From the NCBI GenBank assembly GCA_947629515.1, contig CANRDY010000008.1, positions 1 through 53,004 on the forward strand: a DNA stretch of 53,004 bases. The letters run 5' to 3'. The notes under the pieces are model-generated. The model made no database searches, was not told the origin of the DNA, and was given only the letters and a program-made list of their open reading frames with translations. Below, piece by piece: positions 16,698 to 51,805 of the stretch (position 1 is the first letter of the stretch; every line of letters starts with the position of its first letter). This stretch comes from an uncultured Clostridia bacterium (GTDB taxonomy: Bacteria > Bacillota > Clostridia > Christensenellales > Borkfalkiaceae). The position numbers were made by a program, and so were the translations under genes.

Positions 16698-16822
16698 TTT
16701 CACCACAACTTTTGCCGTGAGGCAAAAATTTCACTTGCGGCGGAACGCCGCAAATTTCACTTTCGCGTAGCGAAAATTTAACTTTTTGCGACAGCAAAAA
16801 ATTTCACCGCGGCAACCGCCGC
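16698..16822 (+). repeat. Family E hairpin array
   Basis: Successive stems TTTGCC/GGCAAA, GCGGCG/CGCCGC, TCGC/GCGA, TTTGC/GCAAA and GCGG/CCGC, joined by the near-constant linker AAATTTCACTT (one AAATTTAACTT). Stem sequence changes completely from unit to unit while the linker is kept. Confidence 0.8.
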
Positions 16823-16824
16823 TT

Positions 16825-16917
16825 CCCGTTGAACAGCCGCATGCTTGTCTACCGTTCCGCCGTTAAGACACTTGGTCAAGCGGAACGCTTGCGAAGCATA
16901 TACGAAGTTTAACGGGA
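16825..16917 (+). repeat. Family A repeat joined to an inverted family B end
   Basis: The A copy (16825-16892) runs into GAAGCATATACGAAGTTTAA, the reverse complement of the B start. This repeat ends 22 bases beyond the stop of the P-type ATPase. Confidence 0.7.
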
Positions 16918-16939
16918 GCAAAGGGAGCGAATGTTTTAA

Positions 16940-20794: not shown

Positions 20795-21048
20795 CTCCCG
20801 TTAAACTTCGTATATGCTTCGCAAGCGTTCCGCTTGACCAAGTGTCTTAACGTCGTTGAGGTAATACGGCGGATAGGCTGTTCAACATAAAGCGGTGTCG
20901 CGCTTGCGTTTTTGCTCAGTAAGGCTAACGCCTTCGGTACGACACTTACGTCATTGTAAGCTCCTGTCGCAAAATCCGCGCGCTCCTTGCATAACTCGCA
21001 TCTCCGAAGTTTCTCACTTCGTAATTGCAATTTACTTCGTTCTTACAT
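20795..21048 (-). repeat. Family B repeat with an embedded family A copy
   Basis: The B start (CCCGTTAAACTTCGTATATG), an inverted A copy (20821-20885), then B hairpins CTTAC-GTCATT-GTAAG (20945-20960) and CGAAGT-TTCTC-ACTTCG. The gap 20795-21385 is repeats up to the ribosome site of kdgK. Confidence 0.7.
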
Positions 21049-21189: not shown

Positions 21190-21346
21190 CCTTAACTTTT
21201 TTGCGACAGCAAAAAAATTTCACTTTTTACCGCAGGTAAAAAATTTCACTTTTTGCGACAGCAAAAAATTTCACTTGCACGCAGTGCAAATTTCACTTTT
21301 TTGCCGCAAGGCAAAAACCCCGCCGCGGGCACAGCCCGCTTCACAA
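21190..21346 (+). repeat. Family E hairpin array
   Basis: Six hairpins: TTTTTTGC/GCAAAAAA, TTTACC/GGTAAA, TTTGC/GCAAA, GCAC/GTGC, TTTTGCC/GGCAAAA and GCGGGC/GCCCGC, mostly linked by AAATTTCACTT. It ends 40 bases before the kdgK start, so it may be in that transcript's leader. Confidence 0.8.
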
Positions 21347-21385: not shown

Positions 21386-22417
21386 ATGAAGAAAATAGTA
21401 ACCATGGGCGAGATAATGCTCCGTCTTTCCACCCCGAACAATGAAAAGTTCATTCAGGCCGACGAGTTCGACGTCAACTACGGCGGAGGCGAAGCCAACG
21501 TAGCCGTATCGTGCGCGAACTACGGACACAAGGCAGAGTTCGTCACCGCCGTTCCCGACAACGAGATAGGCGAGTGCGCGGTAGCCGCTTTGAGAAAGTA
21601 CGGCGTTGAAGTCGACCACATTGCAAAGTGCGGCGAAAGATTGGGTATTTATTACCTCGAAACGGGCGCGTCGATGAGACCTTCCAAAGTAGTTTACGAC
21701 AGGGCGCACAGCTCCATATCCACGGCTACGGCAAAGGACTTCGACTTTGACGCTATCTTTGCGGACGCGGATTGGTTCCACTTCACGGGCATCACTCCCG
21801 CCGTATCCGACAGCGCGGCGATCCTCACCGAAGAGGCGTTGAAAGCCGCCAAAAAGCACGGCGTAAAGGTATCGGTAGACCTCAACTTCCGCAAGAAACT
21901 GTGGTCGAGCGAAAAGGCGCAGAAGGTCATGACCAACCTCATGAAGTACGTCGACGTGTGCATCGGCAACGAAGAGGACGCAGAGCTTGTGCTCGGCTTC
22001 AAGCCCGGCAAGACCGACGTAAAGAGCGGCGAGCTGGAGCTTGCGGGCTACAAGTCGATATTCGAGCAGATGATCGAAAAGTTCAACTTCGAGTACGCCG
22101 TCTCCTCGCTCCGCGTATCGCACTCGGCTTCCGATAACGGTTGGTCGGCGTGCATTTACAGCAGAGACACCAAGGAATTCTACCACAGCAAGACCTATCG
22201 CATAAGCCCCATAGTCGACAGAGTCGGCGGCGGCGACAGCTTTGCGGGCGGCGTTATAACGGGCTTCCTCGACGGCAAGGACTTCAAGGCGGCTCTCGAG
22301 TTCGGCGTTGCGGCTTCGGCTTTGAAGCACACCATTCCCGGCGACTTCAACCTTGTATCGAGAAAGGAAGTTGAAACGCTTGCGGGCGGCGACGGTTCGG
22401 GCAGGGTTCAACGCTAA
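21386..22417 (+). CDS. kdgK: 2-keto-3-deoxygluconate kinase, PfkB family
   Basis: The 343-residue enzyme phosphorylates 2-keto-3-deoxygluconate with ATP to KDPG, the substrate of the aldolase upstream. It has the ribokinase-fold start (KIVTMGEIMLRLSTP), the substrate lid region YGGGEANVAVS (about 32-42), the DLNFRKKLW strand and the PfkB signature DRVGGGDSFAGGVITG near the C-terminus with its catalytic Asp. AAAAGGAG precedes the start. No sigma-A promoter was recognised between the E array and the gene; transcription may come from the aldolase promoter or from within the repeats. Confidence 0.9.
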   Translation: MKKIVTMGEIMLRLSTPNNEKFIQADEFDVNYGGGEANVAVSCANYGHKAEFVTAVPDNEIGECAVAALRKYGVEVDHIAKCGERLGIYYLETGASMRPSKVVYDRAHSSISTATAKDFDFDAIFADADWFHFTGITPAVSDSAAILTEEALKAAKKHGVKVSVDLNFRKKLWSSEKAQKVMTNLMKYVDVCIGNEEDAELVLGFKPGKTDVKSGELELAGYKSIFEQMIEKFNFEYAVSSLRVSHSASDNGWSACIYSRDTKEFYHSKTYRISPIVDRVGGGDSFAGGVITGFLDGKDFKAALEFGVAASALKHTIPGDFNLVSRKEVETLAGGDGSGRVQR

Positions 22418-24524: not shown

Positions 24525-24805
24525 CTCGCTACCCCTACCCTCGCCCTCCCCCTCCGAGGCGGAAGGGGAGGGAATGGAAGAAAGAACAGGGTCGAGTGTG
24601 GACTTCTTAAAACAGCACAGTGCGCTGTTTTGCTACACGAGATGAGTTCGCGCAAATGTCCGCGCGAACGGTGCCCGAGGCGGTTGTTGCCCTTACAACC
24701 GACGAGAAAGGGAACACAAGGGAGGGGGTTTTCGCTTAATGTTGAACAGCCTCTCCGCCGTATTATCGCAACGCTGTTAAGACACATGGTCAAGCGGAAC
24801 GCTTG
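24525..24805 (+). repeat. Family H, I and A repeats in series
   Basis: H tract (CCCTCCCC...GGGGAGGG, 24528-24575), family I copy (24603-24710; third hairpin CGGTTGT/ACAACCG), family A copy (24735-24805). Confidence 0.65.
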
Positions 24806-24842: not shown

Positions 24843-24990
24843 CCTTAACTTTTTTGCGGCAGCAAAAAAATTTCACTTTTGCCGCAAGGCAAAAATTTCA
24901 CTTGCACGAAGTGCAAATTTCACTTTTTTGCGGCAGCAAAAAAATTTCACCGCGGCGCAAGCCGCAAACCTTGCGGCGCAAGCCGCCCAC
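24843..24990 (+). repeat. Family E hairpin array
   Basis: Stems TTTTTTGC/GCAAAAAA, TTTTGCC/GGCAAAA, GCAC/GTGC, TTTTTTGC/GCAAAAAA and GCGGC/GCCGC, linked by AAATTTCAC(TT). It ends 66 bases before the ABC ATPase start. The gap 24309-25055 is otherwise B, H, I and A repeats. Confidence 0.8.
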
Positions 24991-25055: not shown

Positions 25056-26153
25056 ATGGCACAACTTTCATTCAGAAACATCAACAAGGTGTATCCCAAC
25101 GGTTTCCACGCCGTGCACGATTTCAACCTCGAAATCAACGACGGCGAGTTCATCTGCCTCGTCGGTTCGTCCGGCTGCGGAAAGTCGACCACTCTCCGTA
25201 TGGTAGCGGGTCTTGAGGATATCACCGCAGGCGAATTCTACATCGACGGACAGCTCGCAAACCAGATGTCGTCCCGCGACAGGGGAATAGCGATGGTATT
25301 CCAGTCCTACGCGCTCTATCCCCACCTCACGGTGTACGAAAACCTCGCTTTCGGACTTACGCTCGAAGGCATCGACGCGGATATCATCGACGAAAAGGTG
25401 CAGGCGACCGCTAAGATACTCGGACTTACCGAGTATCTCGAAAGGTTCCCCCGCGCTCTCTCCGGCGGTCAGTGCCAGCGTGTTGCCGTAGGTCGTGCGC
25501 TCATAAGAAAGGTCAAGATCTTCCTTATGGACGAACCTCTTTCCAACCTCGACGCAAAACAGCGCGTTACGATGCGTTCCGAAATCAAGCAGATCCACCG
25601 CTCGGTAGGCGCAACGACCATCTACGTCACCCACGACCAGACCGAAGCTATGACGATGTCCGACAGGATAGTCGTTATGAACGCGGGCAGGATCCAGCAG
25701 ACGGGCACCCCCTACGAGCTGTATTTCTATCCCCAAAACCTCTTCGTGGCGGGCTTCATAGGCGAGCCTCCCATGAACTTCATTCGCGGAACGGTAGAGG
25801 GCGGCAAGCTCAAAACCGAAGCCCTCGAATTAGACCTCAAACCCATAGTCGACGACGTAGCGTCCATCGAGGGCAAAAAGGTCGTGTTCGCGTTCCGTCC
25901 CGAGGCTATCACCGTCGACACCAAGGGCAAGGATAAGTATGTGATCGACTCGCAGGTCGACTTGACAGAGCTTTTGGGCGACACCACCAACGTATACGCC
26001 AACGTCGGCGACGTCAACGTCATACTCAAGGTCAACCCTCACCACGCGCCCGAAATGGGCAGCGCGTTCAGCTTTGCCGTTCCCTACAACGCCGCTTACG
26101 TGTTCGACGCCGAAACCGAGCTTGTCGTTCCCAGCAGCCTCAAACGGCACTGA
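25056..26153 (+). CDS. Sugar ABC transporter ATPase, MsmX/UgpC type
   Basis: The 365-residue ATPase drives carbohydrate import from the cytoplasmic side. It has Walker A GSSGCGKST (37-45), a Q-loop (VFQSYALYPHLTV), signature LSGGQCQR (QRQ is usual, so QCQR is a variant), Walker B IFLMDEPLSNLD, switch His in VTHDQTEA, and a C-terminal MalK-like OB domain (about 240-365). It probably serves the permease pair at 33720-35762, 8 kb away. A second ATPase of the same family is at 39920. MsmX-type ATPases often serve several importers. The start ATG 25056 has GAGGAAATAAA upstream. Confidence 0.92.
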   Translation: MAQLSFRNINKVYPNGFHAVHDFNLEINDGEFICLVGSSGCGKSTTLRMVAGLEDITAGEFYIDGQLANQMSSRDRGIAMVFQSYALYPHLTVYENLAFGLTLEGIDADIIDEKVQATAKILGLTEYLERFPRALSGGQCQRVAVGRALIRKVKIFLMDEPLSNLDAKQRVTMRSEIKQIHRSVGATTIYVTHDQTEAMTMSDRIVVMNAGRIQQTGTPYELYFYPQNLFVAGFIGEPPMNFIRGTVEGGKLKTEALELDLKPIVDDVASIEGKKVVFAFRPEAITVDTKGKDKYVIDSQVDLTELLGDTTNVYANVGDVNVILKVNPHHAPEMGSAFSFAVPYNAAYVFDAETELVVPSSLKRH

Positions 26154-48419: not shown

Positions 48420-48539
48420 GCGTTGAACAGCTTACACTCTGTTTTAGCTCAATGTTATTAAGACACCCGTCCGCGGCGACACGCCGCAAATTTCACTCCC
48501 CTCTTTCCCGACCCTTGAAAAGGGTAAAGAAAGAGGGGA
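48420..48539. repeat. Truncated family A, single E unit, H hairpin
   Basis: A copy lacking its usual end (48420-48466) runs into GCGGCG-ACAC-GCCGC and AAATTTCAC, an E unit, then a TCCCCTCTTT...AAAGAGGGGA hairpin (48497-48540) just beyond the stop of the clostripain gene. The gap 47998-48548 holds no gene. Confidence 0.65.
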
Positions 48540-50719: not shown

Positions 50720-50748
50720 TTGCAAAATGCTCATATGTATGTTATAAT
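50720..50748 (+). promoter_or_regulatory. Promoter of the YugP-like gene
   Basis: TTGCAA (50720-50725), 17 bases, TATAAT (50743-50748), 22 bases before ATG 50771, with GGAGGT between. Confidence 0.75.
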
Positions 50749-50770
50749 CAAGGCGACGGAGGTAAAAAAT

Positions 50771-51601
50771 ATGAACATGAATATTCTTCTCGCGCAGTCG
50801 TCGGGCGCGGAACCGACGACCGCGACCACCGCGCTCATAATAGCATTTTTCGTGGTGGTGATACTTCTCGGCGTTGCAACGGTCGTGGCGGGGATACTGA
50901 GGATAATAATCTTCTTCAACTATTGGGTAACCGACAGGAGCAAGACCGAGGCGGGTTTTACGGGCGAGACGGCGGCAAGGCATATGCTCGAAAAACTCGG
51001 ATACGACGATATAGAAGTCAAAAAGGCGGGGTTTTTCCGCGCGCTCGTTTACAGCAATCACTACAACCCCAAAAAGAAGACTATCTATCTCCGCGCTTCG
51101 ACGCTTAAAAGGGACAACATAACCTCGGTGGGGCTTGCCCTGCAAAAGGTGGGCATAGCCGTTCAGGACAAAAAGGGCGGAAGCGTTAAGTCATATTGGC
51201 GGTTGAAGCAGATCGCCGTATTCGGCCCTATCATGTTTATTCCTATCGTTATTGTGGGGATAATAATCGACCTGGTAACTCTTTTAATGATCGGCGGGAA
51301 CTTTTCGGGCGTAGGCACGCTTGTGTGCGCGATCCTCGGCATAGCGTACTTTATAGCGTCGTTCGTGCTTACCATTTACACTATAAAAGTCGAAAAGAGG
51401 GCAAACGGCGAGGCGTTGGAAATAATGCAGAAGTATGAGCTGTTCACCGACGACGAATATGACAAAATAAAAAGGGTGTTCAGAGTTTACATTTTAACTT
51501 ACATCACCGACTTTATCATCAACCTGTTGCAGATATTGAAGCTGATATTGAGGATCGCGATAGAGGTGCTTGCCGCCTCGCAGGATTCCGGCGGGAATTG
51601 A
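50771..51601 (+). CDS. YugP-like membrane protein lacking the zinc-protease motif
   Basis: The 276-residue protein follows the layout of YugP-family membrane zinc peptidases: N-terminal helix (about 20-48), TGETAARHMLEKLGYDDIEVKKA, SNHYNPKKKTIYLRAST, then three more hydrophobic regions and a C-terminal YELFTDDEYDKIKRVFRVYILTYI segment. Where active members have VAAHEAGHAIQ, this one reads LALQKVGIAVQ (122-132): the HExxH residues are Q125, K126 and I129, and the later acidic ligand region reads EKRANGEA. It should therefore not bind the catalytic zinc. The frame is intact with a good ribosome site and promoter, so it looks like a maintained pseudoenzyme, not decay. Confidence 0.75.
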   Translation: MNMNILLAQSSGAEPTTATTALIIAFFVVVILLGVATVVAGILRIIIFFNYWVTDRSKTEAGFTGETAARHMLEKLGYDDIEVKKAGFFRALVYSNHYNPKKKTIYLRASTLKRDNITSVGLALQKVGIAVQDKKGGSVKSYWRLKQIAVFGPIMFIPIVIVGIIIDLVTLLMIGGNFSGVGTLVCAILGIAYFIASFVLTIYTIKVEKRANGEALEIMQKYELFTDDEYDKIKRVFRVYILTYITDFIINLLQILKLILRIAIEVLAASQDSGGN

Positions 51602-51632: not shown

Positions 51633-51805
51633 CGGCGGTGCAGATACTGCGCCGCCGCGGTGAAATTTTTGCCTTGCGGCAAAAGTGAAATTTGCACTGC
51701 GTGCAAGTGAAATTTGCGGCGTTCCGCCGCAAGTGAAATTTTTTTGCTAACGCAAAAAAGTTGTTGTGGAGAATGTGCGGCGGGCGCGTTGCAACGCGCC
51801 CGCCG
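51633..51805 (-). repeat. Family E hairpin array on the minus strand, then an F palindrome
   Basis: On the minus strand, stems TTTTTTGC/GCAAAAAA-like, GCGGCG/CGCCGC, GCAC/GTGC and TTTTGCC/GGCAAAA, linked by AAATTTCACTT. 51778-51805 is a perfect 28-bp palindrome (CGGCGGGCGCGTTG and complement). The array lies between the YugP-like gene and the next promoter. Confidence 0.75.

Follow-up and report, generated by a model that had tools for sequence, protein, structure and literature searches.

The closest described counterpart of the repeats analyzed here is Gut-1, for which the table of the original description lists the human gut only and which the text of that description counts among likely noncoding RNAs (Weinberg et al. 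2010, PMC2864571). This was the only paper among the matches listed in a literature search on the linker letters, on Gut-1, and on hairpin repeats of Clostridia. In Rfam (RF01706), the family is modeled as a fixed 77-nt RNA and typed as an sRNA. The tagged REPs and BIMEs of the GTAG and CGTC superfamilies, as described in PMC3733652, share with our arrays that they are high-copy short palindromes with a conserved unpaired tag at one end and variable stems, that they lie between co-directional or convergent genes, and that they are often paired in opposite orientation; the main text of that paper contains no occurrence of "Clostrid" or "firmicutes". The ends of IS200/IS605 elements and the REPs processed by Y1 enzymes, as described in PMC6006769, likewise resemble the arrays in being strand-specific single-stranded DNA (ssDNA) hairpins that have a short guide on the 5' side of their foot and a link to replication.

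The window, i.e., the whole stretch of 53,004 nucleotides that was analyzed, belongs to the 1.70-Mb genome of an uncultured Clostridia bacterium, labeled G000 below. Reading of the sequence placed four arrays and one solo unit where an earlier note on this DNA had reported them:

Array 1: 16698..16809, plus strand; leader CACCACAAC; linkers at 16726, 16752, 16774 (one mismatch) and 16799; Gut-1 match at 16723-16809, minus strand, 51.0 bits.
Hairpins of array 1, plus strand: TTTTGCC-GTGA-GGCAAAA, TTGCGGCG-GAA-CGCCGCAA, TTTCGC-GTA-GCGAAA and TTTTTGC-GACA-GCAAAAA, each then followed by ATTTCAC or ATTTAAC.
Array 2: 21190..21317, plus strand; leader CCTTAAC; five hairpins and four ATTTCAC linkers (21215, 21241, 21266 and 21288); upstream of a pfkB-family sugar kinase gene (ATG at 21386); Gut-1 match at 21212-21298, minus strand, 53.5 bits.
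Array 3: 24843..24952, plus strand; leader CCTTAAC; four hairpins and four ATTTCAC linkers (24868, 24893, 24915 and 24942); upstream of an ABC transporter ATPase gene (ATG at 25056); Gut-1 match at 24865-24952, minus strand, 53.2 bits.
Array 4: 51658..51770, minus strand; leader CACAACAAC; four hairpins and four ATTTCAC linkers (51731, 51705, 51683 and 51658); points at a zinc metallopeptidase open reading frame (50720-51601, plus strand) that ends 57 bp away; Gut-1 match at 51658-51744, plus strand, 55.6 bits.
Solo unit: 48473..48496, plus strand; a GCGGCG-ACA-CGCCGC hairpin, then one ATTTCAC at 48488.

The arrays of the window are built from a leader ending in AAC and a series of perfect or near-perfect hairpins, each with ATTTCAC after it; the exceptions are one ATTTAAC linker in array 1 and the last hairpin of array 2, which has no linker. 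The linker proved as constant as had been claimed, but it is shorter: the invariant part is the 7-nt ATTTCAC, and the flanking AA and TT are the outer T-A pairs of the hairpins. Matches to the linker with at most two mismatches number 34 in the window, against 19.3 (SD 4.7, largest 31) in 100 shuffles. From the array ends given in the earlier note, it is indeed 40 bases to the ATG at 21386 and 66 to that at 25056. Folding separates all four arrays from shuffled sequence on both strands, with z scores of −3.1 to −6.2 as DNA (0 to 2 of 200 shuffles each as good) and −3.1 to −5.7 as RNA (0 to 1 of 200), array 2 being trimmed to 21190-21330 for these comparisons. When the linker strand is folded as ssDNA, the minimum-energy structure consists of separate beads with unpaired linkers in all four arrays, and the centroid does so in three; folded as RNA, it forms beads in one array, and elsewhere arms of different units pair with each other.

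All four arrays exceed the Gut-1 covariance-model cut-off of 50 bits, at 51.0 to 55.6 bits and on the strand opposite to the linker, so that a named class does exist for a pattern that had been thought to have none. The two are one sequence family, agreeing in linkers, spacing and hairpins. They differ in that Rfam describes an RNA of fixed length on the other strand, whereas the arrays vary in length, occur in many copies per genome and in many families of one order, and carry evidence for the linker strand; of 15 array-bearing loci of relatives, the Gut-1 model picks up 7 at its cut-off, with the highest score, 75.8 bits, at L383 of genome G367. Other known hairpin systems fit less well. A CRISPR array was rejected as a candidate because it joins a constant long repeat to unique nonpalindromic spacers, while here the spacers are palindromes and the repeat has 7 nt. 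Integron attC sites carry RYYYAAC and GTTRRRY boxes in inverted order around one hairpin, and they were also discarded, since our linkers flank each hairpin as direct repeats. The promoters of the phage N4 virion RNA polymerase are small GNA-type DNA hairpins recognized on one strand; they are single promoters of a phage, unlike the dispersed arrays described here.

Confinement to one contig, which the earlier note had named as an outcome that would count against it, is not what we see; the arrays were found across the window's own genome, in relatives of the genus, and in other families. The pattern AAATTTCACTT occurs 119 times in G000 (62 + 57) and its reversed form 0 times, and about 41 arrays of this genome were retrieved and read. 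Across the genus, Gut-1 matches at E ≤ 0.001 are present in 8 of 93 genomes, five of them over the family cut-off (32 matches in G000, 31 in G029, 29 in G038, 27 in G059, 14 in G006, 8 in G056, 2 in G034 and 1 in G060). A looser linker pattern that matched 25 of the 93 genomes was set aside, as its counts beyond G000, G029, G038, G059 and G056 were at the level of the reversed control. We furthermore searched genomes of the order and the phylum with R1, a model of one unit. At E ≤ 0.01, R1 has matches in 29 of the 396 genomes from the order, 25 of which remain at 0.005 (19 of 142 genera), and at 0.005 it has none in 397 other genomes sampled from the phylum; these counts are lower bounds, because few candidates were scored per genome and the filters were strict (17 units were found in G000).

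Each of the 27 loci read outside G000 and G056, which come from twelve families including that of the window, has linker runs with hairpins between them; the linkers are ATTTCAC or ACTTCAC and the leader is often CCNNAAC-like. Linker variants in relatives are ACTTCAC, ATTTAAC and ATTTCAT, and the leader is CCNNAAC in the genus, similar in many relatives, and TCAC-like in another family, f4. Arrays hold about two to five hairpins, with spacers of 9 to 22 nt. Many linker-pattern matches in Flavobacterium and others, among the matches listed, have no hairpin and were dismissed as chance. A phage origin was likewise discarded: five loci from viral_contigs fit the linker-pair pattern, and none of the five has hairpin spacers.

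The claim that pairing is kept is confirmed by 399 linker-to-linker spacers from six species of the genus, in which 88 to 98% of pairable positions form Watson-Crick pairs. The paired cells number 814 of 834 in G000, 411 of 454 in G029, 429 of 467 in G038, 380 of 412 in G059, 121 of 138 in G006 and 180 of 205 in G056, compared with 82, 58, 61, 53, 66 and 52%, respectively, after arms were swapped among units of the same length; the high control value of G000 comes from the repeated use of a small menu of hairpins in that genome. Thus, the free choice of stem sequence that had been proposed is seen across relatives but not within the window's genome, whose 119 spacers comprise 47 distinct sequences in 13 similarity clusters. 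In relatives, 70 of 76 (G029), 69 of 78 (G038) and 66 of 68 (G059) spacers are distinct, none of the 47 of G000 occurs in any of the other five species, and the largest overlap between any two species, G029 and G038, is 6 (of 70 and 69). At the arrays between rpsJ and rplC, comparison of G038 with G029 reveals one stem pair that changed on both sides, from T-A to G-C, as well as an A-T that became G-T and a G-T that became an unpaired G-A. In loci from outside the genus, pairing reaches 70% or more in 264 of 339 spacers, compared with 1 of 33 when the linker is reversed and 0 of 10 when it is permuted, so that hairpins do separate the linkers more often than in controls; these loci were found by linker pair or by R1, the first group thus being selected for linkers and not for pairing, and the second for both. 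Pair counts from alignment A1 are excluded as evidence because its 38 rows were chosen for full pairing. As far as the sequences go, the repeat keeps its pairing, its loop and its 7-nt tag, while the stem sequence is almost wholly replaced between species.

Which strand folds is indicated above all by the loops. On the linker strand, 142 of 272 units of the genus have GNA or GNNA loops, 6 have the complementary TNC or TNNC, and 124 have others; outside the genus, the counts are 152, 3 and 95 (n = 250). Arms that follow gene direction (69:2) show the same asymmetry as arms that oppose it (43:1), and other intergenic perfect hairpins of the same loci, counted on the plus strand, give 62:70. A read-through mRNA was therefore rejected as the folding strand, since arms against genes keep the 43:1 asymmetry, although their wobble bias alone is not significant. 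In the genus, mismatches on the linker strand outside the innermost pairs are G·T in 37 cases and A·C in 5 (P = 4e-7); with one vote per cluster they are 31 and 5 (P = 1.3e-5), and with the innermost pairs included, 44 and 9. By genome, the ratio is 2:1 in G000, which is uninformative for the strand, 7:2 in G029, 12:2 in G038, 6:0 in G059, 3:0 in G006 and 7:0 in G056; by arm, at all positions, it is 17:1 with genes, 13:5 against genes (P = 0.096) and 13:3 where gene direction is mixed. Outside the genus, the bias is not significant (18:12, P = 0.36; 19:13 on a second count), and the mismatch signal is thus unconfirmed there.

The identity of the loops also bears on the nature of the folded molecule. 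RNA would prefer GNRA tetraloops. Among loops closed by C-G, GNA accounts for 159 of 272 triloops and GNNA for 80 of 120 tetraloops, with no preference for GNRA (43) over GNYA (37) in the tetraloops. For DNA mini-hairpins, the published rule is that extraordinary stability goes with loops of the form GNA or GNNA, whatever the N (PMC4686876). RNA tetraloop energies likewise favor the linker strand, and so the loop argument leans to DNA while leaving room for an RNA made from that strand; the DNA energy table has one value for all C-G-closed triloops, which makes the triloop energy test uninformative. Taken as a whole, the evidence probably points more to folded ssDNA than to RNA. Moreover, the strand of Gut-1 in Rfam, which would make GUGAAAU the functional sequence, is probably wrong and the linker strand the functional one; this call rests on the loops above all, with wobble pairs adding to it in the genus only, and favors AUUUCAC while leaving the homology unaffected.

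The arrays are mostly intergenic, 12 of 167 overlapping a gene, as called by simple ORF scoring, by more than 20 bp. Gaps that hold arrays are co-directional in 88 cases, convergent in 15 and divergent in 3, compared with 86, 17 and 33 among array-free gaps of at least 100 bp (P = 1e-6). Both orientations relative to genes occur among the about 41 arrays of the window's genome, contrary to the idea that the linker strand might follow gene direction. In G029, G038 and G059, many arrays consist of two arms diverging from a short AT-rich center, and among 45 arrays that face the 3' end of a gene, the distance to that end is at most 26 bp in 32 and at most 10 bp in 17. Some arrays end at −3 or −4 from the facing gene end; there, the neighboring gene may take its stop codon from the outermost linker, whose complement includes a TGA.

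Presence and absence at the same sites differ between species. At the window's two upstream sites (sugar kinase and ABC transporter), where the flanking genes are about 77 to 83% identical to those of the window, G038 and G029 have arrays with quite different stems, G059 has another linker at the first site and no array at the second, and arrays are absent from both sites in G006 and from the first in G056. The gap between rpsJ and rplC holds an array with its partner arm inside a leader hairpin in G038, G059 and G029, a plain 54-nt hairpin without an array in G006, G053 and G124, a 140-nt version of the latter in G000, and no such motif in the other five genomes compared. This hairpin-like leader, GATACTC...GGTATC, is seen between the two genes in several species of the genus (L307, L361, L362, L371, L366, L364 and L370) and may be a site of ribosomal-protein autoregulation. 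When arrays were compared with their paralogues, including 250 bp on each side and excluding the 100% matches of L214 and L344, which come from overlapping windows, the best match of 24 of the 87 arrays (G006, G000 and G038) broke off no more than 1 bp from the last linker, and matches often extended 100 to 250 bp upstream. Because the arrays were delimited by linkers, the stop is partly definitional, and these alignments do no more than suggest that the repeated unit has the linker at one end.

In two closed genomes from one genus of f4, G367 and G463, array orientation follows replication. The array strand switches where the GC skew changes sign, and the linker lies on the negative-skew strand in 48 of 53 and 32 of 34 arrays, respectively, or 80 of 87 together; a hairpin spacer is missing from the array at 1541123, which is among the 34, and leaving it out gives 31 of 33. 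To place origin and terminus, 20 stretches of 15 kb were sampled per genome, one of which in each genome was opposite in sign to its arc. Gene direction does not explain this sorting, since the flanking genes of 34 f4 arrays (G367, G463 and G188) are mixed: opposite/opposite in 14, same/opposite in 8, same/same in 7 and opposite/same in 5. The linker strand in both genomes is not the lagging-strand template, which is the opposite of the simplest IS200-like picture; the choice of strand would fit insertion of the complement or the loss of arrays whose stronger hairpin strand is exposed. No replichore sorting was seen in the window's genome, where neighboring arrays have the same orientation in 11 cases and different ones in 9. 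In both closed genomes, the GC-skew terminus is flanked by dense groups of arrays, at about 368-581 kb and 1028-1392 kb of contig C1 in G367 and about 564-700 kb and 1193-1322 kb of contig C1 in G463.

We propose, with a probability of roughly 0.55, that the arrays are a dispersed, REP/BIME-like DNA hairpin repeat that acts through its linker strand. The architecture, the strand asymmetry of the loops, the placement, the differing presence at the same sites, and the replication-sorted orientation in one lineage can be read from the sequences; from them we infer a single-stranded DNA state, a factor that acts on it, and movement as the cause of gain and loss. In this scenario, the linker strand would fold as ssDNA so that hairpins of the form C(GNA)G or C(GNNA)G are strung like beads between unpaired linkers, and an ssDNA-processing factor would recognize the linker tag at the hairpin foot together with the loop and would copy arrays, or move them, to intergenic positions that mostly lie past the ends of genes. 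Because the tag, the loop and the pairing would matter and the letters of the stem would not, stems could drift or be replaced, leaving each species with its own dialect. Gut-1 is thus a known name that probably calls for a new reading, as a tagged, REP-like, strand-specific hairpin array acting as folded DNA. Among the guesses of the earlier note, a mobile hairpin family comes closest, with movement being the part that we infer; a protein-binding array, another of these guesses, may also apply.

The annotation in Rfam offers another reading, in which a string of hairpins is transcribed and its unpaired linkers bind a protein, the strand being more likely AUUUCAC than GUGAAAU. The match to RF01706 above the cut-off speaks for such a noncoding RNA, the strand-specific wobble and loop asymmetry would also fit an RNA from the linker strand, and the arms that often diverge from an AT-rich center in G029, G038 and G059 leave room for two promoters. 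We nevertheless consider it rather unlikely, given the approximately 41 arrays that a single genome carries, pointing with genes as well as against them, the lack of a preference for GNRA over GNYA, an orientation that tracks replication in two genomes, and the sequences just before the leader in G000, which are several different modules, some with a GC-rich hairpin at the −10 position when inspected by eye. As these upstream modules differ from each other, a promoter of the array's own right before the leader was rejected. The suggestion of a structured RNA leader also found no support, because array orientation to genes is mixed and the loop asymmetry is independent of gene direction. An element of replication polarity, with arrays acting at the fork in pausing, strand marking or terminus organization, would make the strand sorting functional and would be in line with the 80 of 87 sorted arrays, the dense groups that flank the terminus, and the mixed orientation to genes in f4. 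It appears improbable to us, since G367 and G463 come from one genus and their sorting may be one history, the window's genome is unsorted, arms in G029, G038 and G059 often form divergent pairs, and sorting could also arise if arrays were lost wherever the lagging-strand template is their stronger hairpin strand.

The linker is much better conserved than the stems, which would suit a protein that binds ATTTCAC as double-stranded DNA, with the hairpins as mere spacers; stem pairing and loop identity would then be needless, yet they are kept, and the spacers vary from 9 to 22 nt, so that we give this view little credence. Template switching at forks could make and perfect palindromes with no trans-acting factor and would account for ever-changing, near-perfect palindromes and for the replication sorting, but it would reduce the linker to a passive relic and leave its conservation in twelve families of the order, including that of the window, unexplained, which renders it very improbable.

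With regard to the proposed REP/BIME-like repeat, the class to which it belongs depends on tag and enzyme. The arrays are high-copy, mostly intergenic palindromes that rarely occupy divergent gaps, as REPs are. They depart from the superfamilies described in PMC3733652 in their tag, which is ATTTCAC, ACTTCAC, ATTTAAC or CCNNAAC and not GTAG or CGTC, and in their head-to-tail units with a fixed 7-nt linker and GNA/GNNA loops; furthermore, the cognate RAYT (Y1) of GTAG-type REPs was not found in the window's genome. Because of the tag and the dedicated transposase, we do not file them under either superfamily. Of the six array-rich congeners, five (G000, G029, G038, G006 and G056) lack the Y1 transposase (PF01797) and G059 has one copy, which, together with a linker strand in f4 that is not the lagging-strand template, sets the arrays apart from the IS200/IS605 ends and REPs described in PMC6006769. 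Mobilization by RAYT or IS200 was rejected for the genus, as PF01797 occurs in 28 of 93 genomes without tracking the arrays and is present in the array-poor G034 and G060. Across the order, Y1 genes are found in 6 of 12 array-bearing genomes. No array lies within about 1.5 kb of the Y1 genes at the four loci read (two in f4 and two IS200-like ones of other families), and one of these, L494, has a lone ATTTCAT at its edge. The Y1 genes of f4 have open frames of about 250 to 335 amino acids, a length that we take to be RAYT-like. A reverse transcriptase (PF00078) was also dismissed, being present in 5 of 18 genomes (G038, G059, G056, G168 and the array-poor G045) and absent from G000, G029, G006 and f4.

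More tentatively, the arrays could represent a new superfamily of tagged ssDNA hairpin arrays, so far of one order of gut bacteria, served by a non-Y1 enzyme and replication oriented in at least one lineage. If so, all of what is now called Gut-1 "RNA" would be a DNA element, and its annotation would lie on the wrong strand. For an orphan RNA family that received its name in 2010, this is a concrete and testable new reading, and the arrays offer a natural system of DNA hairpins apparently sorted by replication, suited to testing hairpin strand, fork direction and the survival of repeats against one another.

Several minor features accompany the arrays. In the window, other repeated modules (GTTAAGACAC..., GCTTGCTCTTTGAAAC... 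and GC-rich long hairpins) adjoin them at 16840-16920, 20795-20850, 24740-24800 and 48440-48490, which gives the intergenic DNA of this genome the look of a mosaic made up of several repeat families. The stretch upstream of the solo unit resembles, by eye, the module that precedes whole arrays at L211 and L226, and the unit may be the remnant of a deleted array. At L341 (G006), about 1200-1900, three similar array copies with their flanks stand in tandem, 84 to 91% identical over several hundred base pairs, which suggests local amplification. In the divergent pairs at L282, L308, L311, L312, L315 and L325, one arm carries a second hairpin, its loop about 30 nt long (e.g., GCGCC...GGCGC), at the spot where the partner arm has a mini-hairpin. 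Finally, at L403, L395, L398 and L391, from other families, two opposed arrays interlock, and a longer outer stem is possible (at L403, AAGTTTGCCC with GGGCAAACTT).
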